From Syntrophomonadaceae bacterium (GTDB lineage: Bacteria > Bacillota > DSM-12270 > Thermacetogeniales > Thermacetogeniaceae): a stretch of DNA of 64,000 nt. Shown piece by piece: positions 30,217 through 63,560 of the stretch (positions are counted from its first letter, which is position 1; every line of letters starts with the position of its first letter). A program made the position numbers and the translations under genes. A model generated the notes under the pieces. It searched no databases. It was not told where the DNA came from and saw only the letters and a list, made by a program, of their open reading frames with translations. The stretch is taken from positions 1-64,000 of the forward strand of contig DULK01000028.1 in NCBI GenBank assembly GCA_012840385.1, written 5' to 3'.

Positions 30217-30290
30217 TGCATTTCCTCCTTTCAATTCAATGCATTGCAATAAGATAATTCGCCGCCTGGGAAGGAAATCCTGCAGCTTAA

Positions 30291-31401: not shown

Positions 31402-33372
31402 CTAGCCTTCCTCCAGGTAGATGTCGAGGGTGTTGCTGCTGGCGCGCCATACCGTGTCGTCGATAATGAATTCTTCATTATCGATACGCACCTTAGTGTT
31501 TATAAGGGAATAACCGGAATCCCCGTAGCTGAACCGGGCCGGGTCGATAATATTTATCCTGTCAAAGTCTCTCCAACTGCCGCCGGCGTAAATAGAGACA
31601 TCGTCCGTCCCGCTGTGGTAGATCGACCCCTGGAAGTAAAAGTTGAAATGATCCGGTTGGTTGGCGCCCTGGTATCCGGTGTCTTCGATGACCTTCATGG
31701 TCACCATCTCCAGTTTGGTGTCGTAGTCGATGCTTTTGATCTTATAGAATTTTCCGTCGAAACGGCATCTGAAGACGGAATCACTTCCGCCCACCTCGTA
31801 CTGGCGCCCCTTGATGCGCAGCAGATTGCGGCTGACCACCAGGACGTCATCCAGATCGTAGCTTTCGCCGTCCTTAAGGATCTTAACATCATCGGCATTG
31901 TGGTATTTGTCGTTAATAACGACCCAGTTGGAGTTGTTGGTCTCCGTGCAGTAAATTATGAGCTTGCCTCCCCGCATCTTAACCTCATCGAGTTGATAGT
32001 AGTTTCCGTCCACCAGCATGATTATCTGCGACGGCGAGTAGATGTTGTCATCGGCTTCGAAATTGCCGGATGAGTCAATGATCACACTGGATAGGTTGTA
32101 CTTTTCCCCGTCGATGAAAAAGTCGATGCGGGATATGGAGTCCAGGTCAAGGGTCTCCGGGCCCGCAAAAATAGCCAGGATGTCGGATATCTCCGGATTT
32201 TCGATCAGGACCGGGTCGGTTTCTACCAGCTTCAGGGTAGTTTCCCGGTCACCGAAATTAATTCCCGTTATCCTGTAAAACTTCCCCTCGAGGGCAAGGG
32301 AGACCTTGTCTGCAGACAGGTCGTAAGAGGTACCGGAGATCCTGAGCGTGCTTTCATCCACAAGCTCGGCGTCCGAAAGGTAGAGCTTGCTCTTGAGGTT
32401 GCCGGTATAGAGCCTCAGGTAATCTGCGTTGTAAGTATGGCCGCCGAAGGCCATCTTGTACAGCTTCCTGCACCTGGTTGTTGCTACCAGGTTGCTTCCG
32501 CTGACACTCATACTGCTGATGCAGTAGCGGTTGGTGCCGATGACCAGATCCGGGTTGCCGGATGAACTGTTCAGAGGGAAGCGGATTGTGCCGTTGACGT
32601 AGAGGAAACCTGAAATTGCCTTTAGGTAGCTTACGGGAATCTCGCTCAGATCCTGTTTGATCAACAGCGGGGTGGTGCTGAGGTCGTAGCGTTTTCCGTC
32701 CAGCACCAGCGCCGAGATGGAGTCTGACGTGGATGGATAAGACGTGCCGGGCGAAGATGAAATTCCCAGCTTTGCGAGGAATTTATTAAACATGATGCAG
32801 GCCTGGGCGCGGGTAACCTTTTCGAAGGGTTTGAACTCGCCGTCGGGGTAGCCGGAGACGAGCCCGAGTTCGGAGGCAGCCTTGATATAGCCGCGGTACA
32901 TGCTTTTGTTCAGGCTGGTGCGGTCCGAGAAGGCCGGTTCCCCGGCAGACGGTTCCTTCCCCAGCGCTCTCACCAGCATGGCTGCCGTTTCGCTGCGCAG
33001 GATGGGCCCGTTGGGGTTGAGTCCGCCGGGATACTCCGCGGGTACCAGTACGCCGCGTTTGACCATCTCATTGATCTGGGCCAGTGCCCAGTGATTTCTG
33101 GTATCGGAGAAATAAACGGTAGTTGCACCGTCCGGCTTGATGCCCAAGCAGGCGGTTAGAATCGCCAGGAATTCCGCCCGGCTGACGGTGTTATCGGGGC
33201 GGAAGGTGCCGTCGGGATACCCCTTGATATACCCCTTTTCGGCGAGCGCAGCGATGCTTTCCTCTGCCCAGTGCCGGTTTATATCTTTGAAAACCGCAGC
33301 GGCGCTTGCGCTCAGGGGGATGGCCGCAACTAACGTTAAAACCAACAGGAAGTTCGTTATTGTCCTTCTCAA
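31402..33372 (-). CDS. S-layer-homology domain surface protein
   Basis: 656 aa. A signal peptide (ITNFLLVLTLVAAIPLSASA) is followed by three SLH domains (about residues 28-75, 85-140 and 145-200: FKDINRHWAEESIAALAEKG, FSDTRNHWALAQI, FSDRTSLNKSMYRGYIKAA). The remaining 450 residues are a series of beta-rich repeats with recurring DGKxYDLS or DGExYDLD elements, of unknown function. SLH domains bind pyruvylated wall polymers, so the protein lies on the cell surface. TTG 33372 follows GGAGGTC. Confidence 0.93.
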   Translation of the reverse strand: MRRTITNFLLVLTLVAAIPLSASAAAVFKDINRHWAEESIAALAEKGYIKGYPDGTFRPDNTVSRAEFLAILTACLGIKPDGATTVYFSDTRNHWALAQINEMVKRGVLVPAEYPGGLNPNGPILRSETAAMLVRALGKEPSAGEPAFSDRTSLNKSMYRGYIKAASELGLVSGYPDGEFKPFEKVTRAQACIMFNKFLAKLGISSSPGTSYPSTSDSISALVLDGKRYDLSTTPLLIKQDLSEIPVSYLKAISGFLYVNGTIRFPLNSSSGNPDLVIGTNRYCISSMSVSGSNLVATTRCRKLYKMAFGGHTYNADYLRLYTGNLKSKLYLSDAELVDESTLRISGTSYDLSADKVSLALEGKFYRITGINFGDRETTLKLVETDPVLIENPEISDILAIFAGPETLDLDSISRIDFFIDGEKYNLSSVIIDSSGNFEADDNIYSPSQIIMLVDGNYYQLDEVKMRGGKLIIYCTETNNSNWVVINDKYHNADDVKILKDGESYDLDDVLVVSRNLLRIKGRQYEVGGSDSVFRCRFDGKFYKIKSIDYDTKLEMVTMKVIEDTGYQGANQPDHFNFYFQGSIYHSGTDDVSIYAGGSWRDFDRINIIDPARFSYGDSGYSLINTKVRIDNEEFIIDDTVWRASSNTLDIYLEEG

Positions 33373-47241: not shown

Positions 47242-47697
47242 TTAATGTTGGTCCACCTGAAACTCGGCGGGTGTGTAAACCTTGATGCTGGTGCGCCCGA
47301 CAAAGTGTTTTTTGTTCCACGTAACTATAGCCGAAGCCCGGTACATCTCGGCTTCTCTTAAGAATACGGCGTCACCGATGGTCATTTTTTTGGTGATAAA
47401 CCTGTTCAGATCCGATAAGAAATTTCCTATATCAACATTTTGACCGCTTATAAGACTGCAGGGATCGAGAACTTCGACGGGATAGACTTCGCCGAATAAA
47501 TAAAGCCATTTTTCCAGTTCCTCTTCGTTTAGATTAAAAGATGCCACCCCGCAAATCTCCAAAAGGGTGTAATAAGGCAAAGCGCCCTTGATCCGCGCCT
47601 CTTTTAAAGAAGAGAGAAATTGTCTGTTAACAGGGTAATTCTGGTCTCTTGGGAAAAAGCGATCTATGATAAACACGTTGCTATCAAGAAAAACCAT
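47242..47697 (-). CDS. PIN domain toxin (VapC-like)
   Basis: 151 aa. Starts VFLDSNVFIIDRFFP with the first catalytic Asp, has the Glu in LPYYTLLEICGVASF, and ends with the TIGDAVFLREAEMYRASAIV block and a TWNKKHF, so the three or four acidic active-site residues appear retained. ATG 47697 overlaps the antitoxin gene by 14 bp. Member of an intact type II pair. Confidence 0.9.
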   Translation of the reverse strand: MVFLDSNVFIIDRFFPRDQNYPVNRQFLSSLKEARIKGALPYYTLLEICGVASFNLNEEELEKWLYLFGEVYPVEVLDPCSLISGQNVDIGNFLSDLNRFITKKMTIGDAVFLREAEMYRASAIVTWNKKHFVGRTSIKVYTPAEFQVDQH

Positions 47698-48019
47698 AAC
47701 GATCTCCCTTAGCAACTCTTTCCATCTCCTGCCATGAAGCAAACTCCGTTACTTTGCTGGAGATGCTGTCAGCGAGCTTTTGGAGTTCTTGAGGTGACAT
47801 GGTCAGCAATGCAGGATACTTTCTACCGATATTTTCTCTTAATTTTTGGTAAAGAGAGTCGCGCGGGTGCTTCTGTAAATCTTCTTCGCTGTATGGTTTT
47901 ATTGTAACAATTGGTTTGCCGTGGCGGGTAACAACAAAAATTTTCTTCTCCGCAGCACGAAGAATTTCATTGGTTTTATTTTTCAAATCTCGCGTATTAA
48001 TAAAATTGATATCACTCAC
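47684..48019 (-). CDS. Phd/YefM family antitoxin
   Basis: About 111 aa. INFINTRDLKNKTNEILRAA and VVTRHGKPIVTIKPYS are the Phd/YefM fold. GTG 48019 is the likely start, with AGAGGTGTT upstream; an upstream ATG would add a hydrophobic leader that does not fit. Operon partner is the PIN toxin that follows. Confidence 0.9.
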   Translation of the reverse strand: MSDINFINTRDLKNKTNEILRAAEKKIFVVTRHGKPIVTIKPYSEEDLQKHPRDSLYQKLRENIGRKYPALLTMSPQELQKLADSISSKVTEFASWQEMERVAKGDRYGFS

Positions 48020-48173
48020 CAGCAACACCTCTGTAGCTATAATTGTAGCTATTAGCCTGGACATTGTCAATAATTTAACCCCCCCCCGTGATGCCTTAAC
48101 TCTAACGAGAAGTATGCTATACTGAAAACGCCTTTCCGGACAGGGATTTCAGGCCGGCAAAAGGAGGGAAAAG

Positions 48174-48341
48174 ATGAATCTGTTTTATTATCCAGAAAGA
48201 GATTCCCTTTATATTGAGCTTTCAGAAAAAGTAAGCGTCGATTCCAGGGAGGCCGCCCCAGGAGTAGTTCTCGACTTTGACTCCGAGGGTTGCCTGGTTG
48301 GTATTGACATCGAGGCTCTCAGTGCCTCTTTCGACAAGTGA
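48174..48341 (+). CDS. DUF2283 family small protein, altered C-terminus
   Basis: 55 aa. The DUF2283 pattern is clear: FYYPERDSLYIELSEK, then VAPGVVLDFD-like EAAPGVVLDFDSEGCLVGID. ATG 48174 follows AAAGGAGGGAAAAG. The last about nine residues (LSASFDK) are encoded by a duplicated sequence from the start of the HlyD-like gene on the other strand, so the native C-terminus has been replaced. Function of DUF2283 is unknown; such proteins often sit among TA genes. Confidence 0.8.
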   Translation: MNLFYYPERDSLYIELSEKVSVDSREAAPGVVLDFDSEGCLVGIDIEALSASFDK

Positions 48342-48388
48342 AACCCCTCCCAATAGCGTGAATCTAAATTCGAGCAGCCTGTTCCCGG
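48314..48388. repeat. 75-bp duplicate of 45325-45399
   Basis: Identical to the hlyD-start/tetR-end junction except for one base. Followed 12 bp later by a 65-bp copy of 46222-46286, so the intervening tetR region has been left out. Confidence 0.9.
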
Positions 48389-48400
48389 ACCGGCTGAAGG

Positions 48401-48624
48401 GGGATCTTGAGAGGACAAGAAAAAAGTGGAAGATCATCGTCTTCCACAGGCCACCCTACTGCGCTGAGGTAAACCGCCCTGATGACGATTTAAAGGATGC
48501 GTTCTGTCAGGAGGAAAACCACGTGGATCTTGTCATCAACGGACATGACCATGAGGTGATGTGCGCATATCCCATTGCAGACGGCAGGATTGCCGGCCCG
48601 GCCGGAGGAAACCGTTTACCTTAA
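48401..48624 (+). pseudogene. Metallophosphoesterase fragment, copy B
   Basis: Reads DLERTRKKWKIIVFHRPPYC then DLKDAFCQEENHVDLVINGHDHEV in pieces, ending AGPAGGNRLP. The GHDHE block binds the metal pair of calcineurin-like phosphoesterases. The N-terminal metal-binding half and the C-terminus are absent, and the stop leads into the PIN gene on the other strand. Confidence 0.75.
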
Positions 48625-48633
48625 ATATAGTTA

Positions 48634-49074
48634 TCAGGTCTTTGGCGGCTTTTTTCTTAGCGGCACCGCGGGTAAGCGGATGAAACCCGCGGCATCAAAA
48701 TGGCCGTCAAAAGCGGCTGCCTCGTTAATCCCCAGGCGGCGCATGAGAGCAAAGCTGGTGCAGTCAGTAAAACTGAAATTCTGATCGCTGTACTTAAGGA
48801 AAAGCGCCCAAGCTGTTTCTTCATCCTCGGCGTTCAGGCGTACCAGAGTGCAGATCTTGCTCTCCCGCAGGTGTTTCCCGTATTTAACGGCTACATGGTG
48901 GCCGAAGTCATACCGCAGGATAGTCATTAATTCGTCAAAAACGAAGTTAGAAGTTACAAGGGGAGCAGGTAGATGGCTGAGAAAAGCTGCCGCTTCCTGG
49001 TGATGGGGGTCACCGGCGAAGGCATGAGCGTACCAAAAGCTTGTATCTACGAATATCTGCCGCATTTTACTCAC
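48634..49074 (-). CDS. PIN domain toxin (VapC-like)
   Basis: 146 aa. IFVDTSFWYAHAFAGDPHHQ with the first Asp, VTSNFVFDELMTIL with a conserved Glu, FSFTDCTSFALMRRLGI with the third acidic site, and FDGHFDAAGF at the end. All catalytic sites look intact. GTG 49074 overlaps the antitoxin stop (GTGA). Confidence 0.9.
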   Translation of the reverse strand: MSKMRQIFVDTSFWYAHAFAGDPHHQEAAAFLSHLPAPLVTSNFVFDELMTILRYDFGHHVAVKYGKHLRESKICTLVRLNAEDEETAWALFLKYSDQNFSFTDCTSFALMRRLGINEAAAFDGHFDAAGFIRLPAVPLRKKPPKT

Positions 49075-49789: not shown

Positions 49790-50959
49790 ATGCCTGTTCT
49801 GGAAAGCTTGCGAAAATCACTGCGGCCCCGCAGCCTGAAGCGGGTCTTCGCCGTCACCCTGGTCCTGCTTTTGCAGGCTGAATTCGCCATCCCCTTCTTC
49901 CTGGCGGAATACTACCGGAGGCAGGGCGAGCACTATGTCTTCGCCGGCCGCCTGCCGCGCAGTTTCGAGCAGATCCACCGGGATTTCCCCCTGGCTCTGG
50001 ACTACATCCGCCGGAACCGTTCCCGCTACGACATCAACGTTCTTTTCCTGGGTGACTCGGTGGCCTACGGGGCGGAAACGGGGGAGGGGGAGAGCATCCC
50101 GGCCCGTTTGGAGCGGGAACTGCAGGGGCGCTTCCCCGGTAAGAAAGTGCGCGTTTGGAACCTGGCGATACCGGGCAGCGAACCGGGCGACCTCTACTGC
50201 GTCCTGCGCCGGGTTGAAGGCCTCAACCCCGACCTTATCGTCGCCGACTTCAACATGATCTTCTATGGCAAGGCCAGCGTTGAGGACCCCATTGCCTTTG
50301 ACTGGCTTTATCTGGACGAGGGCTTGCCGGGAGACGCCGCCAGGGCCGTAGACCGGATTTATCGCCGCAGCGGGAAGGAACGCGTGCCGGAGTTCTTCGC
50401 CCGCCACTGGAAGCTCTACGGGAAGAGGGAGGTCCTGAATGCCGTCCTTTTCGGCGGCCATCCCCGCAAGAAGCTGGATGAGCTGGTGCGGGGATACCTG
50501 ATCGGCATTTCACCGGCCGCCCCCGGTTCTGAAAAAGCGGGAGCAGGCGCCGGGGCGGGAAAGCAGTTCGGGGATGCGGAGGCCCGCCGGCAGCAGCGGG
50601 AGAGCGTGGCCTTCATGTACAACCCGGCACCGGTGGACCCCGCCACCAACCGGGCCTACCTCTTCACGAAGGAGATCCTTTCCTGCCTTAAGGGCGGCAG
50701 CGCACGCTCCCTGGTATTTATGACCGATCAGAACCCGGAGATACTGGGGGGGCTGATTACGAACAGGGGCTTCCGGCATAACGTGCATGTGGTGGACGGG
50801 CTCCTCCGGAAAAGCGGTGTCCCTTATATCAGCTTCTACGGGAAAGTTCCCTCCCGGATGTTCGCCGACCACGTTCACCTCACCCCGGAGGGAAACAGCT
50901 TCGTTGCCAGGAGGCTGGCGGACGGGATTGTGCCTCTGCTGGGGGGCGGTGAAAGGTGA
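49790..50959 (+). CDS. SGNH/GDSL-type acyl hydrolase-like membrane-anchored protein (DltD/AlgX-like)
   Basis: About 389 aa. One N-terminal membrane helix (VFAVTLVLLLQAEFAIPFFL), then an extracytoplasmic SGNH domain: nucleophile block VLFLGDSVAYGAETG, and the late catalytic block ADHVHLTPEGNSFVA with the Asp-His pair. An Ala/Gly-rich linker (about residues 245-265). Such proteins transfer or receive acyl groups in wall-polymer acylation. Its stop overlaps the MBOAT start (GTGA), so they act together. ATG 49790 follows AAAAGG; 49781 is possible. Confidence 0.8.
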   Translation: MPVLESLRKSLRPRSLKRVFAVTLVLLLQAEFAIPFFLAEYYRRQGEHYVFAGRLPRSFEQIHRDFPLALDYIRRNRSRYDINVLFLGDSVAYGAETGEGESIPARLERELQGRFPGKKVRVWNLAIPGSEPGDLYCVLRRVEGLNPDLIVADFNMIFYGKASVEDPIAFDWLYLDEGLPGDAARAVDRIYRRSGKERVPEFFARHWKLYGKREVLNAVLFGGHPRKKLDELVRGYLIGISPAAPGSEKAGAGAGAGKQFGDAEARRQQRESVAFMYNPAPVDPATNRAYLFTKEILSCLKGGSARSLVFMTDQNPEILGGLITNRGFRHNVHVVDGLLRKSGVPYISFYGKVPSRMFADHVHLTPEGNSFVARRLADGIVPLLGGGER

Positions 50960-52233
50960 TCTTCACCACCGGAATCTTTGCCGTCTTTCTTGCTGTGGTG
51001 CTGCCGGTCTACTGGCTGCTTCCGGCGCGGCCGCGCAAGGTCTTTCTCGCCGTAGCGGGGATGGTCTTTTATTTCTATTCTTATCCCCTGCACCTGCTGC
51101 TGGTTCTGGTGATGACGGCGGCGACCTACGTTATTGCCGTGGGGATCCTGCGGGCGCGGGAAACGGGGGAAGCGCCGCGCTCTGCTGAAGATGGCGGGCT
51201 GAACGAAGCGCCGGCGGCGGAGAGGCGTGGCCTCCTGGCGAAAATTCTGGCGGCCCTGGGGATCTGCCTTGCTGCAGGTGTGCTCGGCTACTTCAAGTAC
51301 TGGAAGATGGTTGTGGCCACCCTGAACGGAATCTCCCGGCACCTGCACCACGAGGCGATTTTCCGGCAGCCGGAGATCCTGGTGCCCCTGGCCATCTCCT
51401 TTTTCACCTTTGAATTCATCCATTTCCTGGTGGACGTCTACCAGGGGAAGATCCCCCGGGAGAAGATCGGCTTCCTGGATTACCTCCTTTTTATCTTTTT
51501 CTTCCCCACCCTGGTGAGCGGCCCCATCAAGCGCTACCAGGGGTTCCGGGAGCAGTCGGAAGCAATGCCCGGCTTCCGGGTTGACGACTTTCTGGACGGA
51601 GCGCGGAGGGTGATCCTCGGCCTGGCGCAGAAATTCATCCTGGCCGACACCGCCGGGCAGTTTACGGGCGCCCTGGCGGCACCGGACCAGGTGGCGGCCC
51701 GTGTTCTCATCCTGGCTGTCTATGCCTATTCCCTGAAGATCTACTTTGACTTCGCCGGTTATTCCGACATGGCCATCGGCCTTGCCAGGATGCTGGGCTT
51801 CCGGGTGCCGGAGAACTTCGACCGTCCGTACTTCCAGCCGGACATCGCCGCCTTCTGGCGACACTGGCACATGTCCCTCTCCACCTGGATCAGGGACTAC
51901 CTCTACATTCCTCTGGGAGGGAACCGCAGGGGCTTCGGGCGCACCCTTTTCAACCTGGTGGCGGCCTTCGCCATCTGCGGCCTCTGGCACGGCTCCGCCT
52001 GGAATTTCGTGGTATGGGGCCTCTGGCACGGTTTCGGGCTGGCGGGGTACCGCATCTGGCGGCGCTGCTTCGGGGACCGCCTCCCCCGCGGGGGAGTTTT
52101 GCTGCGGGCGGTGAACGTTTTCATTACCTTCCATTTCGTCACCGCCGGGTGGATCCTCTTCGCCTCCCCTTCGCTCGGGCGTGCCCTGATCACCTTTCAG
52201 AAGATCATCGGGGCCATATGGCGGGTGCTTTGA
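50956..52233 (+). CDS. MBOAT family O-acyltransferase (AlgI/DltB/PatA-like)
   Basis: 425 aa with about ten helices. The MBOAT signature is clear: DIAAFWRHWHMSLSTWIRDY and LYIPLGGN, and the catalytic His in CGLWHGSAWNFVVWGLWHG. MBOAT proteins pass acyl groups across the membrane to extracytoplasmic acceptors such as alginate, teichoic acid or peptidoglycan. Coupled to the SGNH gene, and followed after 110 bp by a 44-aa membrane protein. Confidence 0.94.
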   Translation: MIFTTGIFAVFLAVVLPVYWLLPARPRKVFLAVAGMVFYFYSYPLHLLLVLVMTAATYVIAVGILRARETGEAPRSAEDGGLNEAPAAERRGLLAKILAALGICLAAGVLGYFKYWKMVVATLNGISRHLHHEAIFRQPEILVPLAISFFTFEFIHFLVDVYQGKIPREKIGFLDYLLFIFFFPTLVSGPIKRYQGFREQSEAMPGFRVDDFLDGARRVILGLAQKFILADTAGQFTGALAAPDQVAARVLILAVYAYSLKIYFDFAGYSDMAIGLARMLGFRVPENFDRPYFQPDIAAFWRHWHMSLSTWIRDYLYIPLGGNRRGFGRTLFNLVAAFAICGLWHGSAWNFVVWGLWHGFGLAGYRIWRRCFGDRLPRGGVLLRAVNVFITFHFVTAGWILFASPSLGRALITFQKIIGAIWRVL

Positions 52234-52344
52234 GATGCGTGAGGCCGGATGTGATGCCTCCGGAAGCCGCAGCTTTCATCCGAAGGCGCAGCCGCTTTCC
52301 GGTTGGCGGAAGAGCGCTTTTACAGCTGTAAAGGGGGGATACCT

Positions 52345-52479
52345 GTGCGGGCGCTCATGAACTTTTTCCTCGGCCTGGGCATCGACCTGGGCTGGGGATT
52401 TCTCCTCTTCGTCCTGATCGTCCTCTGCGTCCTCTTTTCCACCGGCGTTGAGGCGCGGTTCATCTACACCGACTTTTAG
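52345..52479 (+). CDS. 44-aa DltX-like membrane protein
   Basis: GTG 52345 follows AAGGGGGGAT; TAG at 52479. One transmembrane helix (GFLLFVLIVLCVLFSTGV) and the C-terminal tail RFIYTDF. Small DltX-type partners of DltB end in an aromatic F-x-Y-x-x-F-like motif whose Tyr is reported to carry the acyl group. The tail here, F-I-Y-T-D-F, fits that pattern, and the position after MBOAT supports it. Homology cannot be shown at this length by eye. Confidence 0.75.
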   Translation: MRALMNFFLGLGIDLGWGFLLFVLIVLCVLFSTGVEARFIYTDF

Positions 52480-52604
52480 GTTCCGTTAATGTTTCCTTGC
52501 CCGGCTGAGGCGGGCCGCATGGCCCCGGTTTCAGTTTCCCTGTTTTTCCATAAAAAATTTTTTCCGCGGCCGGGAACTTTTTGAAGCCTTTTGGTGTCTA
52601 ATAA

Positions 52605-52761
52605 AATGTGAGAGTCGAGGAAGGCCCGTCCAGCTAAAGCAGGAATTTGGCGGAGGACGGAGAATATACCTTCCGCGGCAGTTCCTGGTTAGAGCGCCGG
52701 CAGAGCGCCGCCGGCGGCAGGGCCGCAGGCTCTCCCCGCCGGAGCCGGGAACACTCACATT
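52605..52761 (+). ncRNA. Highly structured leader RNA candidate upstream of surface protein
   Basis: Four sets of complementary arms nest in about 157 bp: AATGTGAG (52605-52612) with CTCACATT (52754-52761); GGAAGG (52619) with CCTTCC (52669); CCGTCC (52626) with GGACGG (52655); GTTCCTGG (52681) with CCGGGAAC (52745), enclosing AGAGC/GCTCT. It resembles a two-branched riboswitch-like or regulatory leader. It may instead be an inserted inverted-repeat element. Located 166 bp before the surface protein start. Confidence 0.5.
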
Positions 52762-52927
52762 AAAGGAGCCGCCAAATTCGATACCAGAAAGGGAAGGAGG
52801 GATGCGGTGACCCGCAGGCCGACCACCTGCAAGGAAGCCGTGAGGTAAAGCCTCAAAACACCTAAAGCCTGAGAATACCTCAACCAAATCAAATCTTTGA
52901 GGAGAAACTTAAAGGAGGGAAATTAGC

Positions 52928-55186
52928 TTGTTAAAGGCACGCAAAAGATGGATCAGCCTGCTCGTAACCCTGGCCATGCTGGTGGCGTTTGTGGTGCCGT
53001 TTGCAGGGCCGGCAAGCGCAGGTGCAGCATCTTATACCGCGGTTACAACTATTCCCCAATTCGATCCGGGAGCAACTAATGCAAGCAGCACATGGTCCGC
53101 AACCGTACAAGTCAAGTTTGATCCAGCAATAAGTGGTCAACTATCTGAAGCTTATGTAGAGGTTCTAGATAGCAGTGGTGCACAACTGGATATTAACGGT
53201 TATAATGTATTGAGTGCTACAACAGTTGGTGCTGTCTATTTAAATGATGGACAAATTAATAGCCCAACTGGAGAGGTTTCTTTACAACCAAGCGTAAAAA
53301 AGATTAAGTTAGGGATACTTCCAAATAATTCAACTGACCCAACGGCCAAGGCAACCGTCAATTTAAAGCTTAGATTTGATGCCAAAGACTGTGCCGCTGG
53401 CGATGTTAAGTTCAACGTCTTCGGCTCCACCGGTCAATTCGAAGATGGTCAGGTCGTTGTAGCCAGGGCCACGGGTGGTGCTGTAACAGTAGCGCTTGTA
53501 GGCAGTGTTCCGACAATTGGCTCTGATTCTACAAAGAATATCACATTCCGTTTAAGCGAGAGCAGTGGCGGTGCTCTCAAGGCGTACACGGGTAGTCCAT
53601 CGCCGTCAGTAAAAATTAAACTTCCGGCTGGCTTCAAGTGGGTTGGTGCGTCATCGTCAAGTGGGAATGTTTATGCGCAACCCAAGAGTGGGGATAACAG
53701 AACATTAGAGATTTATTGCAGTAGCGCTTCCTCTGACAGATCAATATATGATATTACAGCGACCATTGCAGTTGCCGATACAGATGTTGCGAAATACGGT
53801 GATGTGGTGGCTACAGTAGAGGGTGATAATGATACTACAGTTTCGCCGTCTGAAATAACGGTTGCTACCTACGCAGATTATGGTGTGAATGTTTCTGTTG
53901 CCAGTGTTCCTACATTAATTGCAGGTAAATATGACCAAAAAACTGATAAAATCACCATTGAAGAAAAGATTCCAGGCTCACTGATCAGTGGTCGGAGGAT
54001 CACGATCGAATTGCCGAGTTGGGTTAAGATCGAATCACTTACTGATAAATCAACAAGCAATGTAGATGAAGGAACAAATAAATTCCAGTGGCCGGATAAC
54101 GCACAGATCGATTATACAGATAATAAGATCGATCTTTATATGAACGGGCTTAAGTCCGATAAAGCTAAGTTTGAATTCAAGATGAAGTTAAACATCGAGG
54201 CTAACCACAGCGGCGACTTGGTAGCGACTGTGAGCGGAGCAGGTATACCCGAAACCAGTGTTACACTGGCAAAAGTAGTTCCTGCTGTAACCGCAGCAGC
54301 TACAGCTTCAGATGTTAAGATAGGCGTTCAGGATCAGGCAGCACCAGACATTATCTTAACCGAAAATGTAGCAGGTGCTATTGTGAAACAATATAATGAG
54401 GCAGCTCCAACTACAACAGACGGTTTTGTTACGAAGACTGTAGATGGTGGCAAGCTGTCTGTAATCCTGCCAGATGGTGTTCAGTTCTCCGGAACACCGA
54501 AAGTTGAGGTAACATCCGGTGATATTGATATCAAAGCGGATCAAGCACGTGTGGTCGATGATCCTGGTTACAAGAGGGCTTTTGAAATTCCCATTAAATC
54601 CGAGAGTCTGAAAGCCAGTACTATTAAGATCTCGGGTATTAAACTGACGCTCGACCGGACAGTGCCGGAAGGGCCACTCACAGTGAAAGTAATTGGCAAT
54701 GCTGTTGTCGAGAATTCAGGTTCTGCGGATTACGAATTCACGACAGATAAGGCTACTGAATTTGTTCTGGCCAACTGCGTGACTCCGGCTCCTGGCGAGC
54801 AGAAGGGAACCGCCGTTTTCAAGATCGGCGAGACCAAGTACACCGTCAACGGAAAGGAAGTTACCATGGACGTTGCTCCAGTCGCTGAAGCCGGACGCAC
54901 CTACCTGCCCGCACGGTTTGTAGCCAACGCGATGGGCGTGCCCGACAGCAACATTATCTGGGATCAGGCCAACCAGACCGTCACCGTCATCAGGAACGAG
55001 CGCATCGTCCAGATGAAGGTCGGCAGCAACCAGATCCTTGTGAACGGTATTGCCCTGACCATGGATGCTGCTCCGAAGGTGGTCCCGGGCCGTGTGCTGA
55101 TTCCGTTCCGCTTCCTTGCCCAGGCTCTCGGTGCGGAAGTGGTTTGGGATCCTGCTGACCCGAACACCATCACCCTTAACTTCTAG
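52928..55186 (+). CDS. Large secreted protein with C-terminal copper-amine-oxidase-like domains
   Basis: 752 aa. Signal peptide (WISLLVTLAMLVAFVVPFAG, cleavage after ASA). A long beta-rich, Ser/Thr/Asp-rich region (residues 30-610) of low GC relative to the flanks, likely a stalk or S-layer-like array. The last 125 residues are two copper amine oxidase N-domain-like repeats (FKIGETKYTVNGKEVTMDVA; MKVGSNQILVNGIALTMDAA), which act as wall-binding or structural modules in clostridia. TTG 52928 follows AAAGGAGGG. Strong leader and terminator suggest high expression, possibly the major S-layer protein. Confidence 0.88.
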   Translation: MLKARKRWISLLVTLAMLVAFVVPFAGPASAGAASYTAVTTIPQFDPGATNASSTWSATVQVKFDPAISGQLSEAYVEVLDSSGAQLDINGYNVLSATTVGAVYLNDGQINSPTGEVSLQPSVKKIKLGILPNNSTDPTAKATVNLKLRFDAKDCAAGDVKFNVFGSTGQFEDGQVVVARATGGAVTVALVGSVPTIGSDSTKNITFRLSESSGGALKAYTGSPSPSVKIKLPAGFKWVGASSSSGNVYAQPKSGDNRTLEIYCSSASSDRSIYDITATIAVADTDVAKYGDVVATVEGDNDTTVSPSEITVATYADYGVNVSVASVPTLIAGKYDQKTDKITIEEKIPGSLISGRRITIELPSWVKIESLTDKSTSNVDEGTNKFQWPDNAQIDYTDNKIDLYMNGLKSDKAKFEFKMKLNIEANHSGDLVATVSGAGIPETSVTLAKVVPAVTAAATASDVKIGVQDQAAPDIILTENVAGAIVKQYNEAAPTTTDGFVTKTVDGGKLSVILPDGVQFSGTPKVEVTSGDIDIKADQARVVDDPGYKRAFEIPIKSESLKASTIKISGIKLTLDRTVPEGPLTVKVIGNAVVENSGSADYEFTTDKATEFVLANCVTPAPGEQKGTAVFKIGETKYTVNGKEVTMDVAPVAEAGRTYLPARFVANAMGVPDSNIIWDQANQTVTVIRNERIVQMKVGSNQILVNGIALTMDAAPKVVPGRVLIPFRFLAQALGAEVVWDPADPNTITLNF

Positions 55187-55372: not shown

Positions 55373-55423
55373 GTGGTTGAATTAGTTAATGCAGTTAAGT
55401 ATTTCTGAGAGGGGATGGCCGGT

Positions 55424-57037
55424 TTGCTGATGAGGAAAATTTACGGTGCAGTTATATCCTTGACTGTGGTTATAAGCCTGCTGGCAGGCCCTTTGCTGCC
55501 GGCGGCCTGGGCGAAGGAGCCGGCAGCACCTCAGCTCACCCTTAAAGATGCCATCCAGAAGGCTTTGTCGAGCAGTGAGGATGTGAAGGCGCAGGAATAC
55601 GCTGCGGAGAAAGCCGAGGAGCAGCGTAAAGATGCATTAGATGCTGTAGATTTTATCCCCGCGCCTCTTTCTGCTTCACCACAGGGTGATGTCGCATGGT
55701 CGTCGTTCATGAAAGCCGATTACAACTGGCAGATCCAGAAAAAAAAGCTGGAAGCTTCTAAGGATAAGGTAACCCAGGCGGTCGTCCAGGCTTATTACGA
55801 TGTCATTTATAAAAATGAGAGTTTGAAGAATGCCCAGGCGGCCCTGGCGCGTGATGAAAAGGCCCTCCAGGTTGCCAGGGCGGTGTACGCCGCGGGCGGT
55901 ATCCCCTCGACGACTGCAAGTACAGGTGGCATTCCGCCGGGGACCAGGGCCAGCCTGCTGGCGGCGGAGGCCAAAGCGCAGGATTCGAGAAAGGCGGTTG
56001 AAAGCGCCAAAGCAGAACTTGACAAGGCATACATTACCTTTAACCGGCTGGTGGGGCTCTGGCCGGAGGACCGCCCGGTGCTGACAGAGCCCTTGACCTT
56101 TGCCCCGCTGAAAATCGACAGCGTCGATGCTGAGGCCGAACGCGCCGTGGAATCGAGCAAAGAGATTGATATCAAAGAGAAATTGAAAGATATCGCCAAG
56201 GTCGATGTCGATTATCCGTACACTCTAAGTACGAGCGGTTTTGTCTGGCAGGAGCTGGACATCACCGGGCCGGAGGTTAACATCAAGGAACAGGATATAG
56301 CCAAGGCGAAAAACGATACCAGGCAAAACCTGCGTACCCTTTACAACGACATCCGTGCGCTGGAGGAGAAGTATGCCGCCCTGCAGGATGCCTTGAGAGC
56401 CGCCGAGGAAGGGCTGAGAATTACGAGGGCGTTGTATGATGCCGGTATGACCACGCAGGATAAAGTGGCGGAGGCGGAGGCAAGCTACACGGACCTGCGC
56501 ACAAAGCTGGTCGGCCTGACAGCACAGCATACGGTACAGCTTGCCAGCTTTTGCCTGATGACCGGGCGGCCCGTGACAGACGGGTCGTTCCTGGACGCTG
56601 TGGTGGATAAGGGGAGCGCGCAGGTGATTACAGCCGGTGACGCCCGGACGGAGGCCGGGAACGTGGCCGTCTTCCGGATCGGCGAGGCGAAGTACAGCTT
56701 GAACGGCAGGGAGATTTCCATGGACATTGCGCCGGTTGGAGAAGATTTTCGCGCTTTTCTGCCTCTGCGTTACGCCGCCAATGCCCTGGGAGTGCCGGAT
56801 ACGGGCATAACCTGGGACGCGGAGAGCCGGAAGGTTACCCTTGTAAAGGGCGATCGCCGGGTTGAGGTGACGGTGGGCAGCAGGGAACTGCTCCTGAACG
56901 GCAGTGCGGTCACCATGGACGTGGCGCCAAAGATCAGCAACGGGCGAGTCATGCTCCCGGTCAGTTTTCTGGCAAAGGCCCTCAATGCCGACGTTCAGTG
57001 GGACAGCGCCACCCAGACCGTAACCATTAAGTACTAA
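55424..57037 (+). CDS. TolC/outer-membrane-efflux-like protein fused to copper-amine-oxidase-like domain
   Basis: About 537 aa. Signal peptide (IYGAVISLTVVISLLAGPLL). Residues about 35-400 are long amphipathic helices with TolC/OEP character: LTLKDAIQKALSSSEDVKAQ, a repeated ITRALYDAGMTTQDKVAEAE that matches the canonical OEP duplicated helix, and VQLASFCLMTGRP. The C-terminal about 120 residues are two copper-amine-oxidase-like repeats (FRIGEAKYSLNGREISMDIA). TTG 55424 has the best spacing to GAGGGG. It shares its C-terminal module with the preceding surface protein. Confidence 0.85.
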   Translation: MLMRKIYGAVISLTVVISLLAGPLLPAAWAKEPAAPQLTLKDAIQKALSSSEDVKAQEYAAEKAEEQRKDALDAVDFIPAPLSASPQGDVAWSSFMKADYNWQIQKKKLEASKDKVTQAVVQAYYDVIYKNESLKNAQAALARDEKALQVARAVYAAGGIPSTTASTGGIPPGTRASLLAAEAKAQDSRKAVESAKAELDKAYITFNRLVGLWPEDRPVLTEPLTFAPLKIDSVDAEAERAVESSKEIDIKEKLKDIAKVDVDYPYTLSTSGFVWQELDITGPEVNIKEQDIAKAKNDTRQNLRTLYNDIRALEEKYAALQDALRAAEEGLRITRALYDAGMTTQDKVAEAEASYTDLRTKLVGLTAQHTVQLASFCLMTGRPVTDGSFLDAVVDKGSAQVITAGDARTEAGNVAVFRIGEAKYSLNGREISMDIAPVGEDFRAFLPLRYAANALGVPDTGITWDAESRKVTLVKGDRRVEVTVGSRELLLNGSAVTMDVAPKISNGRVMLPVSFLAKALNADVQWDSATQTVTIKY

Positions 57038-57140: not shown

Positions 57141-57299
57141 ATTTATTTGTTTTATCTTGGACGATTGCTTCTCTGTGTGGGGTGGAAAATAAAAATATGT
57201 GTTAGAATATATCCACAGGAAGTTTGATTGGGAAAGATTTTTCATATAAGCTATTTGCTAATTTATATTACGTCCGGTAATTTGAGGGGGTGTACTAAA

Positions 57300-57518
57300 G
57301 TGGCCATCGAAAAATTGTTCGATGAAATCAAGAAACTTTCTCTGTGGGAACGAAAAAAAATATTGGAAATGTTAGAGGGTCAAGTAAATACCGGTAAAGA
57401 TATAAAAGAGTTCATAGAGGCCGCGGGTTCGTGGACGGACTTCGATGAAGAGAGTTTTATCAAGGATGTTTATTCATACAGACAAAAATTACCTGAACGA
57501 GAAGAGGCAAACTGGTGA
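57300..57518 (+). CDS. Antitoxin-like protein (VapB type)
   Basis: 72 aa. VAIEKLFDEIKKLSLWERKK then a C-terminal AAGSWTDFDEESFIKDVYSYR, which is typical of antitoxins paired with PIN toxins. GTG 57300 follows GAGGGGGTG. Overlaps the toxin gene by 4 bp. Confidence 0.75.
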   Translation: MAIEKLFDEIKKLSLWERKKILEMLEGQVNTGKDIKEFIEAAGSWTDFDEESFIKDVYSYRQKLPEREEANW

Positions 57519-57712
57519 TTGCAAAATATCTTGTTGATACCGATTGGGCTGTCTATTATCTGCGCGGCAAGGAACCTTTCGTAACAAAGTTACAGGAATA
57601 TCTCCCTCATGGGCTAGGTTTGAGCATTATTACTGTTGCTGAGCTTTATGAAGGAATTTTTAGAAGCACTAGACCTGATGACAGTATACTTGCTGCACAT
57701 CAGGTGTTATAA
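57515..57712 (+). pseudogene. Truncated PIN toxin
   Basis: 65 aa. YLVDTDWAVYYLRGKEPFV then LGLSIITVAELYEGIFRSTR contain the first Asp and the Glu, but the frame stops before the third and fourth acidic residues. A VapC toxin is normally about 130 aa. Probably inactive, although a C-terminally truncated form may still bind the antitoxin. Confidence 0.8.
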
Positions 57713-57733
57713 TCCTAGCAGGGGGGGACATTT

Positions 57734-57958
57734 GTGAAATTCAAGCGAATTACCGTTGACCCGACGGTTTGCACCGGGAAGCCCTGTATCAGAGGGCTTC
57801 GCTTTCCTGTCTCTCGTTTATTGGGGCTCCTGGCTGCGGGTGAAACAAAAGAGAGCATCCTGCAGGCCTATCCTTACCTGGAGGCCGAGGATATTGACGA
57901 GGCTCTCATTTTTGCAGCATTTTTAGCCGACGATGAAACGGTGGAATTTTTGCAGTGA
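57734..57958 (+). CDS. DUF433 family antitoxin
   Basis: 74 aa. KRITVDPTVCTGKPCIRGLR and LGLLAAGETKESILQAYPYL, the DUF433 signature. GTG 57734 with GGGGGG upstream. Followed by, and overlapping, an intact DUF5615 toxin gene. Confidence 0.92.
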   Translation: MKFKRITVDPTVCTGKPCIRGLRFPVSRLLGLLAAGETKESILQAYPYLEAEDIDEALIFAAFLADDETVEFLQ

Positions 57959-58317
57959 AATTTTTGATTGATATGCCCCTTTCACCAGGACTTGCCAGTT
58001 GGTTGGTTGAACATGGATACAATGCGGTTCACGCGCTTGAAGTCGGCCTTGACCGGGCTTCTGATACAGTAATACTTGAGCGGGCGCGTAGGGAAAAACG
58101 CGTGGTTATAACGGCTGACCTGGATTACCCGCAATTGCTTGCATCATCGCATACAGAGGGGCCGGGATTGATTCTTTTTCGAGGTGGCAACTACAGTGAA
58201 GCGGATGCGCTTTACTACCTCCGCAAGGTGCTCGCATCAATTACACCCGAAGTTCTTTGTAAAAGTATAGTGGTAATCGAAAAGAACCGTATCCGGTTCA
58301 GAAGCCTGCCGCTATGA
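57955..58317 (+). CDS. DUF5615 family PIN-like toxin
   Basis: 120 aa. MKFLIDMPLSPGLASWLVEH (first Asp), RREKRVVITADLDYPQL (the ADxDF-like acidic motif), and the C-terminal SIVVIEKNRIRFRSLPL. Intact homologue of the broken gene at 36651-36992. GTG 57955 overlaps the antitoxin stop. Confidence 0.9.
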   Translation: MKFLIDMPLSPGLASWLVEHGYNAVHALEVGLDRASDTVILERARREKRVVITADLDYPQLLASSHTEGPGLILFRGGNYSEADALYYLRKVLASITPEVLCKSIVVIEKNRIRFRSLPL

Positions 58318-58339
58318 GATACGTAAGACACGTCAGATA

Positions 58340-58436
58340 CGGAGGATACAGGGACGGTTCTCTTGTCTGCGCTATTTATTATGTGATGTGAATAACGTTT
58401 AAGGCCGCTTAACCGCAAGGTTGGGTGGCTTTTATT
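58340..58436 (+). repeat. REP-plus-terminator repeat, copy 2
   Basis: Copy of the unit at 57048: ACAGGGACGGTTCTCTTGTCTG, then AAGGCCGCTTAACC-GCAA-GGTTGGGTGGCTTTTATT. Ends the DUF433/DUF5615 operon; continues into a duplicated promoter-leader-hicB segment. Confidence 0.75.
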
Positions 58437-58504
58437 GCTCTTTCACCGGGTGTAATCTATAATGAGCTTGACAGTGAATATTTGTGTTGAATAGGGAGGC
58501 TGCT

Positions 58505-58609
58505 GTATACTGATTCTAACTGCTTTTGTGGCAGCGGCTCTGGCGGAGGCTCGTTACAAGCTACTGGAGGACGGACGAGAGACCGTTAATATCATTGTAG
58601 CAGAAAGTT
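58505..58609 (+). pseudogene. HicB-like fragment, copy 1 of the triplicated module
   Basis: Matches 60735 and 62073 from a start codon changed to ATA through ILTAFVAAALAEARYKLLED, then loses homology (GRETVNIIVAES, stop). Missing start and most of the protein. Confidence 0.8.
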
Positions 58610-58718
58610 AGTGGGGCAGTACGGAACCAGGTCATTGACTCCGGCTGCTTGGGGTTTACAATCAGGGCAAGGAAGACATTAGGGAGGTAATTTAAGGTTA
58701 ATCGAAGAAGGGAGAAAA

Positions 58719-59021
58719 ATGGGTGTTTTGGTTGAGCTCAAAAAGCTGCAGCAAGTTGTTGAAAGCTTCGGAAGCAACCCTCTCATTGAGAAGACCATCC
58801 GCAAGTTAATAAGTTTGAGAAAGCAAGAGCTAAAGCGGACCCTGCGGCATCTTTCAGAAGAGATCAGGGCTCTGGAGCAGCGCTATCAGTTGAGCTCTTC
58901 TGATTTCCAAAAGCGCTATGCCGAGGGGACTCTTGGCGACGATGTGGACCTCATCAAATGGGCCAGCTTCTTAGACATGCAACAGCGTGTTCAGGCGCAG
59001 CTGGAGTATCTCGAGAAATGA
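58719..59021 (+). CDS. TumA-like antitoxin of a TumE pair
   Basis: 100 aa, mostly helical and charged (LVELKKLQQVVESFGSNPLI, LISLRKQELKRTLRHLSEEI), with a coiled-coil region. It overlaps the TumE-like toxin gene by 4 bp, the normal antitoxin-toxin layout. ATG 58719 follows GAAGGGAG. Confidence 0.75.
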   Translation: MGVLVELKKLQQVVESFGSNPLIEKTIRKLISLRKQELKRTLRHLSEEIRALEQRYQLSSSDFQKRYAEGTLGDDVDLIKWASFLDMQQRVQAQLEYLEK

Positions 59022-59410
59022 CCACTGCACGCTATTTTGAAAGACTAAAAATGATGTTGTTGCAGCTGGAATTTGTGGATGAAGTGATTGTCCGCGAAGA
59101 ATTAATCACTGATGACTTTGGATACCTCTGCCTGCGTTTCACTCTGAGCAATGGAGATATTGTAGAATTGTTTGAATACGTGGTAAAGGAGCAGAATGCG
59201 ATAAGAACGGTTAATTATAGCTTTCATCTGCAGGATGCGAATGCCGTGTTGCTTAAAAGATGGGATAATGCCCCTCATCACCCGGAGCTGGAGAGTTTCC
59301 CGCACCATTTACACCATGGGAAAGAAGTTTTACCCCCTCGGCCAATGAACAGCTTTGCTTTCTTGGCTTTTTTGAAGCGGCACTTTAGGGAAGGGCGCAG
59401 GAGCGGGTAG
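59018..59410 (+). CDS. TumE-like toxin (DUF6516)
   Basis: About 130 aa. The family end motif is clear: TVNYSFHLQDANAVLLKRWD, then NAPHHPELESFPHHLHHG. LRFTLSNGDIVELFEYVV is the other conserved strand set. TumE toxins are reported with TumA antitoxins in type II systems. ATG 59018 overlaps the antitoxin gene. Confidence 0.85.
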   Translation: MTTARYFERLKMMLLQLEFVDEVIVREELITDDFGYLCLRFTLSNGDIVELFEYVVKEQNAIRTVNYSFHLQDANAVLLKRWDNAPHHPELESFPHHLHHGKEVLPPRPMNSFAFLAFLKRHFREGRRSG

Positions 59411-59539
59411 TGCTTACTGCCTGACAGACCTCAAAGATTGTATACTTTTGGTGATTTTGCCTGCCTTGTGAAGAAAGGGGCGGGCTTTATATTTTATAAT
59501 CGGGTGGACGCCAATGACGACCGGGCGGCACCATCAGAA
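59411..59539. other. Intergenic
   Basis: No gene recognised; leads into the dispersed repeat at 59540. Confidence 0.4.
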
Positions 59540-59623
59540 AGCCAGGTTTGGGAGGTTGATTCAGAACTGGTGTTAGACAGTTCTTGCAAACTTCCGACAT
59601 CTGACTCCTGCCTCAGACATCTA
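59540..59623 (-). repeat. Dispersed repeat, copy 2 (inverted relative to 6357-6440)
   Basis: Reverse complement of 6357-6440 with scattered mismatches. Ends in CTGCCTCAGACATCTATAC. Confidence 0.7.
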
Positions 59624-59821
59624 TACTACAGGGTAGATGCAAATGGTTGAGATATCTAGCCGAAAAGCAGAGTAGGCATTAATTTGGTTCTTTCGGCATC
59701 CTTCAAAGGCAACCATCCTCACATAGTTTTGATTAGCCAGATTTTGCTCCAGAATGCTATACATTAAAGTATAGTACGTTTGGTAAAGGAAATCTATTGC
59801 CACATGGCAGGGGAGCCCCGG
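59624..59821. other. Intergenic with a decayed minus-strand frame
   Basis: A minus-strand frame reads FLYQTYYTLMYSILEQNLAN then QNYVRMVAFEGCRKNQINAY. The pattern faintly recalls the C-terminal helix of ATP-synthase gamma subunits, but no start or flanking blocks exist. I do not call it a gene. Confidence 0.25.
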
Positions 59822-59850
59822 TTGACACTTCCCTCTTAATCTGATATTCT
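59822..59850 (+). promoter_or_regulatory. Promoter of the AbrB/PIN pair
   Basis: TTGACA (59822-59827), 17 bp, TATTCT (59845-59850), just upstream of a GGAGG ribosome binding site. Confidence 0.65.
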
Positions 59851-59870
59851 GAAAATCGGAGGTGCTGGCA

Positions 59871-60170
59871 TTGCCGGAGAATGAAATGATTCGTGTTGGG
59901 AAGAGAGGCACTATAGTGATCCCGGCTGCACTGCGCCGCGCCTATAACCTGAAAGAAGGGACGCTTCTCGCTGCGGAGATGCGGGAGGAGGGTATTTTAC
60001 TGTACCCGGTGGTAGTATTGCCGGTAGAGAGCTATACCCCACAGCGCAAGGCGGAGTTTCTGTTAAACAATGCTATTACCCCTGAGGATTACGACTGGGC
60101 AGTGAAAGAAGTACGAGAACTCGGGCTTGATCCGGAGAAAATCCCACACGAAAGACCGGAGAGGCGCTAG
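59871..60170 (+). CDS. AbrB/SpoVT-domain antitoxin
   Basis: About 99 aa. MIRVGKRGTIVIPAALRRAY and NLKEGTLLAAEMREEGILLYP are the swapped-hairpin AbrB fold; the C-terminal half ends ELGLDPEKIPHERPERR, the toxin-binding tail. TTG 59871 is 6 bp after GGAGG. One base separates its stop from the PIN toxin start. Confidence 0.9.
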   Translation: MPENEMIRVGKRGTIVIPAALRRAYNLKEGTLLAAEMREEGILLYPVVVLPVESYTPQRKAEFLLNNAITPEDYDWAVKEVRELGLDPEKIPHERPERR

Positions 60171-60171
60171 G

Positions 60172-60573
60172 ATGCACCGCCTCTTTCTAGACGCTAACGT
60201 GCTGTTTTCGGCGGCCTACGGGAGTACCGGACTGCTGAGGTTATGGGACCTGGCGAGGGCCGGTGAGGCTGTTCTTCTCAGTTCGGGTTACGCCATAGAA
60301 GAAGCCAGGCGGAACCTCGGCAAAAGGGAACAGTTATGCCGTTTGGATGAACTGGTTCGGGACGTGACTCTTGTGCCCGAAGCTCCCGCGGATTTTTCCT
60401 GCCCGGTGGCCTTACCGGAAAAAGATAGGCCGGTGCTTGCAGCGGCAATTCAAGCAGGTGCCACGCATTTTTTAACAGGAGACCTGCGTCATTTTGGACC
60501 ATATCGCGGCCGCAGGATTGACGGTGTCGTGATCTGTACACCGCGGGATTATCTGACAAAAAGAAAAGAATAG
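60172..60573 (+). CDS. PIN domain toxin
   Basis: 133 aa. RLFLDANVLFSAAYGSTGLL (first Asp), LLSSGYAIEEARRNL (Glu), VALPEKDRPVLAAAIQAGAT and HFLTGDLRHFGPY (third and fourth acidic sites). All active-site residues are present. About 58 bp of this gene is duplicated at 62533-62590. Confidence 0.9.
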   Translation: MHRLFLDANVLFSAAYGSTGLLRLWDLARAGEAVLLSSGYAIEEARRNLGKREQLCRLDELVRDVTLVPEAPADFSCPVALPEKDRPVLAAAIQAGATHFLTGDLRHFGPYRGRRIDGVVICTPRDYLTKRKE

Positions 60574-62675: not shown

Positions 62676-63560
62676 ATGGACTACATCCTCCTGCTCAGGC
62701 CGAAGCAGTGGGTGAAGAACTTCTTCGTCTATGCCGCCCTCATCTTTTCCCGGAATGCCTTCGACCCCCTGCTGCTGGGGGTGACCACCGCCGCCTTCGC
62801 CCTCTTCTGCCTGCTGAGCGGCGGGGTCTACGTTTTGAACGACATCTGCGACCGGGAGCGCGACCGCCTCCACCCCGTCAAGTGCGGCCGGCCCGTCGCC
62901 TCCGGGAGGGTTCCGGTGGGAACGGCCCGGGTCTATGCGGCAGCACTGCTCGGCGGCGGCATTTTTGCCTCCTTTGCCGTAACCCCGCTCCTGGGGATCG
63001 TCGCCGTGGCCTACACCGGGCTGATGATCGCCTATACCCTCTGGCTCAAGGAGCAGGTGATCCTCGACGTTTTCTCCATCGCCGCCGGTTTCATCCTGCG
63101 GGTGGTGGCGGGGGTTGCCGCCACGGGGGTGAGCCTCTCCCCCTGGCTGATCCTCTGCACCCTTTTCCTCTCCCTCTTCCTGGCCCTGGGGAAGCGGCGC
63201 CACGAGCTCTACCTGCTCAAACTGGAGGCTCAGGAGCACCGCCCGGCCCTGGATCACTACTCCTTCGGCTTCATCGATCAGATGGTCTCCATCGTCACCT
63301 CGGCTACGGTGCTGTCCTACTCCCTCTACACCTTTCTCGCCCCGACCAGCCGGCTGATGATGCTCACCATTCCCCTGGTGCTGTACGGCATGTTCCGCTA
63401 CCTCTACGTCATTTACCGGGCCAACGGCGGGGGCGCCCCCGAGGATGTCCTGATGAACGACCTGCCGCTGCAGGTGACGGTGCTCCTCTGGATCGCCGCC
63501 TGCCTCTTGATCCTTTACCTGGGCGGCACCCCGGGGCAGCCGGTGGTCACCCTTTATTGA
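62676..63560 (+). CDS. UbiA family prenyltransferase (decaprenyl-phosphate phosphoribosyltransferase-like)
   Basis: 294 aa with nine hydrophobic segments. The first Asp-rich motif is VYVLNDICDRERDRLHPVK, followed by GRPVASGRVP, matching the subgroup of 5-phospho-alpha-D-ribosyl-1-diphosphate:decaprenyl-phosphate transferases (DPPR synthase), which start wall arabinan or other polyprenyl-phosphate pathways. A menaquinone prenyltransferase role is less likely. ATG 62676 follows GAGGGGAGC. Confidence 0.85.
   Translation: MDYILLLRPKQWVKNFFVYAALIFSRNAFDPLLLGVTTAAFALFCLLSGGVYVLNDICDRERDRLHPVKCGRPVASGRVPVGTARVYAAALLGGGIFASFAVTPLLGIVAVAYTGLMIAYTLWLKEQVILDVFSIAAGFILRVVAGVAATGVSLSPWLILCTLFLSLFLALGKRRHELYLLKLEAQEHRPALDHYSFGFIDQMVSIVTSATVLSYSLYTFLAPTSRLMMLTIPLVLYGMFRYLYVIYRANGGGAPEDVLMNDLPLQVTVLLWIAACLLILYLGGTPGQPVVTLY

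Follow-up and report, generated by a model that had tools for sequence, protein, structure and literature searches.

A candidate MBOAT/SGNH acyltransferase cassette with a separate acyl-shuttle microprotein in a Syntrophomonadaceae bacterium

The cassette and its surroundings

The window, the stretch of 64,000 nucleotides analyzed here, belongs to contig DULK01000028.1 of a Syntrophomonadaceae bacterium (GCA_012840385.1). As listed in Table 1, it contains a three-gene cassette encoding an SGNH/GDSL-type protein, an MBOAT, and a 44-aa microprotein. Such a cassette, with a single-helix small protein ending in FIYTDF, had been described in the first-pass annotation, and the coordinates given there for the three ORFs were correct. 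The SGNH and MBOAT genes overlap by 4 nt, and the small ORF begins 111 nt 3' of the MBOAT stop codon. Its product, VRALMNFFLGLGIDLGWGFLLFVLIVLCVLFSTGVEARFIYTDF (44 aa), has one hydrophobic helix and the C-terminus ARFIYTDF. The MBOAT ends in ...FQKIIGAIWRVL without an FxYxxF tail, and a genome search identified it as the one MBOAT in the entire 2.7 Mb genome. Pfam assigned the MBOAT to PF03062 (4.5e-29) and the SGNH protein to Lipase_GDSL (1.1e-5, above the cut-off); for the small ORF, neither Pfam (E<=0.001) nor NCBIfam gave a match. A promoter scan found none, nothing was found by Rfam over the intergenic region 52470-52940, and the Rfam search over the right part of the window yielded one tRNA only.

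Table 1. Features of the cassette and of the adjoining gene (positions in the window)
Feature	Position	Strand	Basis or remark
SGNH/GDSL-type protein, 389 aa	49790..50959	+	N-terminal membrane helix (~aa 16-47) and extracytoplasmic SGNH domain; proposed final acyltransferase
SGNH catalytic Ser90 codon (GDS motif)	50057..50059	+	invariant column
Asp360-x-x-His363 codons of the SGNH catalytic triad (DHVH)	50867..50878	+	invariant columns
MBOAT, 425 aa, GTG start	50956..52233	+	without C-terminal FxYxxF tail
MBOAT conserved His305 codon (WHMSLS motif)	51868..51870	+	invariant, 27 sequences
MBOAT conserved His345 codon (WHG motif), candidate catalytic His	51988..51990	+	invariant, 27 sequences; aligned with DltB WHG
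Shine-Dalgarno-like aaagggggga, 5 nt 5' of GTG	52330..52339	+	sequence; G-rich stretch at the same position in two relatives
Putative DltX-like acyl-shuttle microprotein, 44 aa, with a short N-terminus, a single membrane helix, and a hexapeptide at the C-terminus	52345..52479	+	GTG start at 52345; purifying selection; counterparts at 43/44 tail-less non-Dlt MBOAT loci
Microprotein predicted membrane helix, aa 13-31	52381..52437	+	hydropathy; positive-inside bias over 43 relatives
FIYTDF, putative C-terminal shuttle motif	52459..52476	+	FxYxxF is the exact C-terminus in all 43 microproteins found
Tyr41 codon, proposed acyl carrier	52465-52467	+	within the FIYTDF motif
Candidate intrinsic terminator 3' of the cassette	52561..52576	+	consensus scan only
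Secreted S-layer-like protein, Cu_amine_oxidN1 domains	52928..55186	+	PF07833, 2.6e-44; neighbor, outside the machine

The MBOAT model (pLDDT 92) had its best fold matches in DltB (6bug and 8jem, TM about 0.7), and the same DltB entries were recovered by a profile search (6bug at 6.6e-51). His305 and His345 were invariant in 27 split MBOATs, a type described below. In the model of the SGNH protein (pLDDT 80), an SGNH domain follows an N-terminal helix. A small GDSL esterase was the top fold match; when targets of similar overall length were considered, DltD (3bma and 7dxm) was matched weakly (TM about 0.4). Ser90, Asp360, and His363 were invariant in 18 relatives. Within the cassette, an MBOAT with the conserved His345 adjoins an SGNH protein with all three of these residues, as in bacterial MBOAT/SGNH envelope acyltransferases in general.

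The gene for the S-layer-like protein has a homolog 3' of the cassette in genomes G001 and G005, and the arrangement is kept in three related genomes including the window. The signal peptide of the S-layer-like protein was retained in the window and at loci L144 (4458-6527) and L141 (10108-12261). In two congeneric genomes with MBOATs 96% identical, the S-layer-like proteins shared only 45% identity, as in a fast-diverging surface protein. Adjoining the S-layer-like gene, positions 55415-57037 encode a secreted protein with outer-membrane-efflux-type (OEP) and Cu_amine_oxidN1 domains. Small toxin-antitoxin-like genes (PIN, Phd/YefM-like, and DUF433/DUF5615) are densely clustered at 47242-49074 and 57228-60573, flanking the cassette and the S-layer-like genes, and positions 48277-48624 hold a calcineurin-like phosphoesterase fragment (the domain end only), apparently a broken gene. 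At 62676-63560, a decaprenyl-phosphate phosphoribosyltransferase-like UbiA protein was detected in this clostridial genome, its score of 255 bits exceeding the NCBIfam cut-off (234), with a counterpart at the same relative position in G005; this gene may hint at an unusual envelope glycan that contains pentose. On the minus strand, an ORF at 29587-30603 contains near-identical short repeats (QINQVRDDLQG) and encodes a repetitive, coiled-coil-like protein.

The small ORF and its counterparts at other MBOAT loci

The small ORF is significant because the window MBOAT lacks the shuttle tail that is fused to other non-Dlt MBOATs, a feature absent from the first-pass annotation. We compared the ORF with its homolog in another genus of the same family (genome G005, locus L004). 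The 23 nucleotide differences fell on codon positions 1, 2, and 3 in a ratio of 7/0/16, comprised 14 synonymous and 5 conservative codon changes, and were accompanied by no indel. The sequences 3' of the stop codon were apparently unrelated. The codon-position pattern, the kind of codon changes, and the lack of indels indicate that the small ORF is a translated, constrained protein under purifying selection.

The MBOATs compared came from the window genome and 60 relatives, from 80 loci of a public set, and from 398 genomes within the phylum. Two kinds were found: proteins of ~450-570 residues ending in FxYxxF (e.g., NPFLYFRF), called fused here, versus tail-less proteins of ~380-430 residues, called split where the motif is on a separate microprotein. 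Among the 398 phylum genomes, the window group comprised 16 loci at 435-712 bits with frames mostly of 394-427 aa, and below a score gap the next match was at 337 bits with a frame of 497 aa. Under a strict rule, which called for a small ORF ending in aromatic-x-Tyr-x-x-Phe beside the MBOAT within an ORF-length limit and was applied to 122 related MBOATs, a separate FxYxxF microprotein was present at 33 of 48 tail-less loci versus 0 of 74 tailed loci (Fisher p=1.6e-18, with related loci treated as independent). The 15 exceptions included two DltB loci and one tailed MBOAT with a variant motif; at others, the small frame was hidden by the ORF-length limit (GC-rich loci) or lay ~2 kb upstream (L037 and L057). 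With the limit lifted, the tree set of 44 non-Dlt tail-less MBOATs had a microprotein in 43 cases. The first-pass annotation had proposed a search for small ORFs ending in F-x-Y-x-x-F at other MBOAT loci, with a non-conserved motif counting against its reading; the outcome favored that reading, as the motif was kept at these loci, in every case at the exact C-terminus, with the invariance of the Tyr and the last Phe resulting partly from selection through the rule. As a background, only 3 of 18,872 small ORFs (25-160 aa) in the fetched loci ended in FxYxxF, one of them being itself a cognate microprotein.

An alternative reading is that the small ORF is spurious, or a relic of a lost fused tail, and that the MBOAT/SGNH pair works without it. 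Its GTG start, its distance from the MBOAT stop, and the sole locus without a microprotein (L029 5941-7200, a Myxococcales MBOAT with no tail and no nearby SGNH gene) are in keeping with such a reading, which is nevertheless extremely improbable given the purifying selection on the ORF and its presence at nearly all tail-less non-Dlt loci in at least eight phyla. A spurious ORF was rejected on the basis of this selection and conservation.

The carriers belong to Bacillota, Myxococcota, Binatota, Actinomycetota, Peregrinibacteria, Verrucomicrobiota, Planctomycetota, and Acidobacteriota. The microprotein ORF usually ends 100-320 nt downstream of the tail-less MBOAT, and at most split loci the pair is flanked by an SGNH gene with GDS/GNS and DxxH motifs. 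The gene order is SGNH-MBOAT-microprotein in the window and most Bacillota, and MBOAT-microprotein-SGNH in Carboxydocella, Acidobacteriota, Verrucomicrobiota, and others. Beside the Bacillota cassettes, no conserved genes other than SGNH were found. In one myxobacterial contig (L031 5869-8790), a split and a fused-tail MBOAT are adjacent on opposite strands. A phage collection and viral contigs gave distant MBOAT matches only (31-53% identity).

Over the 43 microproteins, K/R outnumbered D/E on the N side (118 vs 81), and D/E outnumbered K/R on the C side (44 vs 28), a charge bias that fits a C-terminus outside the membrane. In an ungapped profile comparison, the last 34 residues of the microproteins matched those of the fused tails along the full length of 34 columns (hhalign probability 96%, E=5e-9), and the microprotein looks like the detached last helix and tail of a fused MBOAT. 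On the tree, DltB formed a separate clade (4 rows, support 100) and the fused MBOATs formed one clade (99); the split and fused types were unmixed, both outside DltB. The split MBOATs required at most one further change, and a single split clade was not rejected (p-AU 0.78). One switch thus separates split from fused. Its direction is set by the root, and a root on the DltB side may make the split type the older one, which is a lead only because the tree sample was drawn by similarity to the window MBOAT and included only four DltB rows. Tentatively, the free-standing shuttle could be the original arrangement of bacterial MBOAT/SGNH machines and no special trait of Dlt, with a large split family so far unrecognized in many phyla and with fused PatA/AlgI proteins derived from it by one fusion event.

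A published account from 2025 places a separate shuttle microprotein only in Dlt, with the other MBOAT/SGNH pathways carrying the motif on the MBOAT (PMC12148441). Judging by the loci compared here, the split non-Dlt cassette clearly departs from this account and is widespread, occurring in at least eight phyla; in the open-license literature we found no papers describing it. The microproteins are short and lack a family model, and they are easily missed in annotation. In the split cassette, a natural two-piece system, the shuttle could be deleted, altered, or exchanged while the MBOAT stays intact, so that the shuttle mechanism becomes directly testable.

Proposed transfer route, donor, and acceptor

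We consider it likely that the cassette is a self-contained MBOAT/SGNH acyltransferase whose shuttle microprotein is separate, like that of Dlt, but which has no Dlt donor system, with the secondary cell-wall polymer (SCWP) as the proposed acceptor. The FXYXXF motif on DltX and PatA is described as an experimentally established Tyr shuttle motif (PMC12148441), and an acyl-Tyr shuttle mechanism is highly probable here. In the proposed route, the MBOAT would accept an acyl group at the cytoplasmic face of the membrane; this is most likely an acetyl group supplied by acetyl-CoA. The acyl group would pass by way of the conserved MBOAT His to Tyr41 of the FIYTDF tail, which would dip into the MBOAT lumen from outside. 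The tail would then swing to the membrane-anchored SGNH protein and acylate Ser90, and the SGNH protein would finally esterify an envelope glycan. The most likely glycan in this host is the pyruvylated SCWP, to which SLH-domain proteins are bound.

A different origin of the acyl group would be expected if the genes were a degenerate or relocated Dlt system, in which DltB, DltD, and DltX homologs D-alanylate a wall polymer through an unrecognized D-alanine ligase and carrier protein. The separate shuttle is itself a Dlt trait, DltB has the fold nearest to that of the MBOAT, DltD provides the full-length fold matches of the SGNH protein, and DltB TIGR04091 was the best of the curated models for the MBOAT. 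The score of this match, however, was 211 bits against a cut-off of 375. The DltX family PF12459 did not match the window microprotein (E<=0.001), and it matched four of ten relatives at 14-18 bits, below the cut-off of 25. With scores so far below both cut-offs, DltB placed apart from the split and fused MBOATs on the tree, and no dltA or dltC in the cassettes, the Dlt explanation appears improbable. The earlier remark that no dltA is near was extended to the whole window genome, where no dltA equivalog (TIGR01734) was above the cut-off (best 87 bits vs 560), and to 16 further carrier genomes with the same outcome (17 in total). Two known arrangements were rejected as such: a true Dlt operon, by the DltB score, the missing dltA, and the tree position, and an alginate-type system with a fused tail, by the tail-less window MBOAT. 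The comparative data supported the first-pass view, in which three genes form an envelope acylation unit and one of them encodes a DltX-like component. "DltX-like" holds for the proposed mechanism, in that a separate one-helix protein with a predicted outside C-terminus ending in FxYxxF stands beside a tail-less MBOAT and an SGNH protein, and does not hold for membership in the DltX family. For the self-contained acyltransferase, acetyl-CoA rather than a carrier protein is the probable donor by analogy, as the ligase is missing and PatA uses acetyl-CoA (PMC12148441). The best curated match of the MBOAT being the DltB family leaves room for an unrecognized carrier-protein donor.

The first-pass annotation named the S-layer-like protein and wall polymers as candidate acceptors. 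With csaB beside the cassette in two relatives, the wall polymer (SCWP) is favored and the S-layer-like protein itself is less favored. The cassette of G117 comes immediately after csaB (268 bits, cut-off 213) and a DUF5693 gene, and a wecA-like gene is close by. At L028, a locus from a Pelotomaculum MAG, the genes after the cassette are wecG/tagA and csaB, and those before it encode glycosyltransferases and a sugar-phosphate transferase. The window genome encodes CsaB (289 bits), and the window an SLH protein at 31402-33372. Among carriers, 16 of 17 had csaB above the cut-off, compared with 282 of 396 phylum genomes (p=0.03, a weak result from relatives that are not independent). CsaB is described as pyruvylating the SLH-binding secondary cell-wall polymer (PMC10435577), and in Bacillus anthracis PatA1/PatA2 and PatB1 O-acetylate SCWP, with loss of patA1/patA2 altering S-layer assembly (PMC7759979). 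Most Bacillota cassettes, the window's included, are not beside polysaccharide genes, so the acceptor assignment draws on the two relatives and the weak csaB co-occurrence. As most other Bacillota cassettes also lack an S-layer-like or SCWP-type neighbor, the genome context leaves SCWP with roughly balanced chances of being the acceptor. The same shuttle machine could possibly, with a smaller share of the probability, serve peptidoglycan, an exopolysaccharide, or a glycan on the S-layer-like protein. The S-layer-like gene 3' of the cassette in three genomes, the glycosyltransferase genes near several cassettes in other phyla, and the MBOAT/SGNH pairs known for peptidoglycan, alginate, and cellulose (PMC12148441) speak for such acceptors; the cassettes beside csaB in two Bacillota lineages, one of them also beside wecG/tagA, speak against them. 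If SCWP is the acceptor, the acylated wall polymer may be among the factors that determine how S-layers are attached in thermophilic Clostridia.

Comparison with known acyltransfer systems

The cassette resembles Dlt (DltB-DltX-DltD, with DltA/DltC) in combining an MBOAT, a separate one-helix FxYxxF microprotein, and a membrane-anchored SGNH protein, and its MBOAT is similar to DltB in length and predicted fold, with no extra C-terminal helices. It differs from Dlt in lacking a dltA equivalog, in an MBOAT whose score is under the DltB cut-off and whose place on the tree is outside the DltB clade, in a microprotein that follows or flanks the MBOAT and is not recognized as DltX by Pfam, and in a donor that is probably an acyl-CoA. 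With PatA/PatB, PatA1/PatB1, and AlgI/AlgJ/AlgX, it shares the nature of a non-Dlt MBOAT/SGNH pair, the expected FxYxxF chemistry, and probably the use of acetyl-CoA; PatA1/PatB1 moreover act on SCWP, the acceptor proposed for the cassette. In PatA/AlgI-type proteins, however, the tail is fused and the MBOAT reaches about 470 aa and more, whereas the cassette MBOATs are about 395-430 aa long and the tail is encoded by a gene of its own. AT3-SGNH proteins of the OatA type likewise carry out transmembrane acyl transfer via a Tyr to the SGNH Ser (PMC12148441), but their SGNH domain is fused to AT3, whose fold bears no relation to MBOAT.
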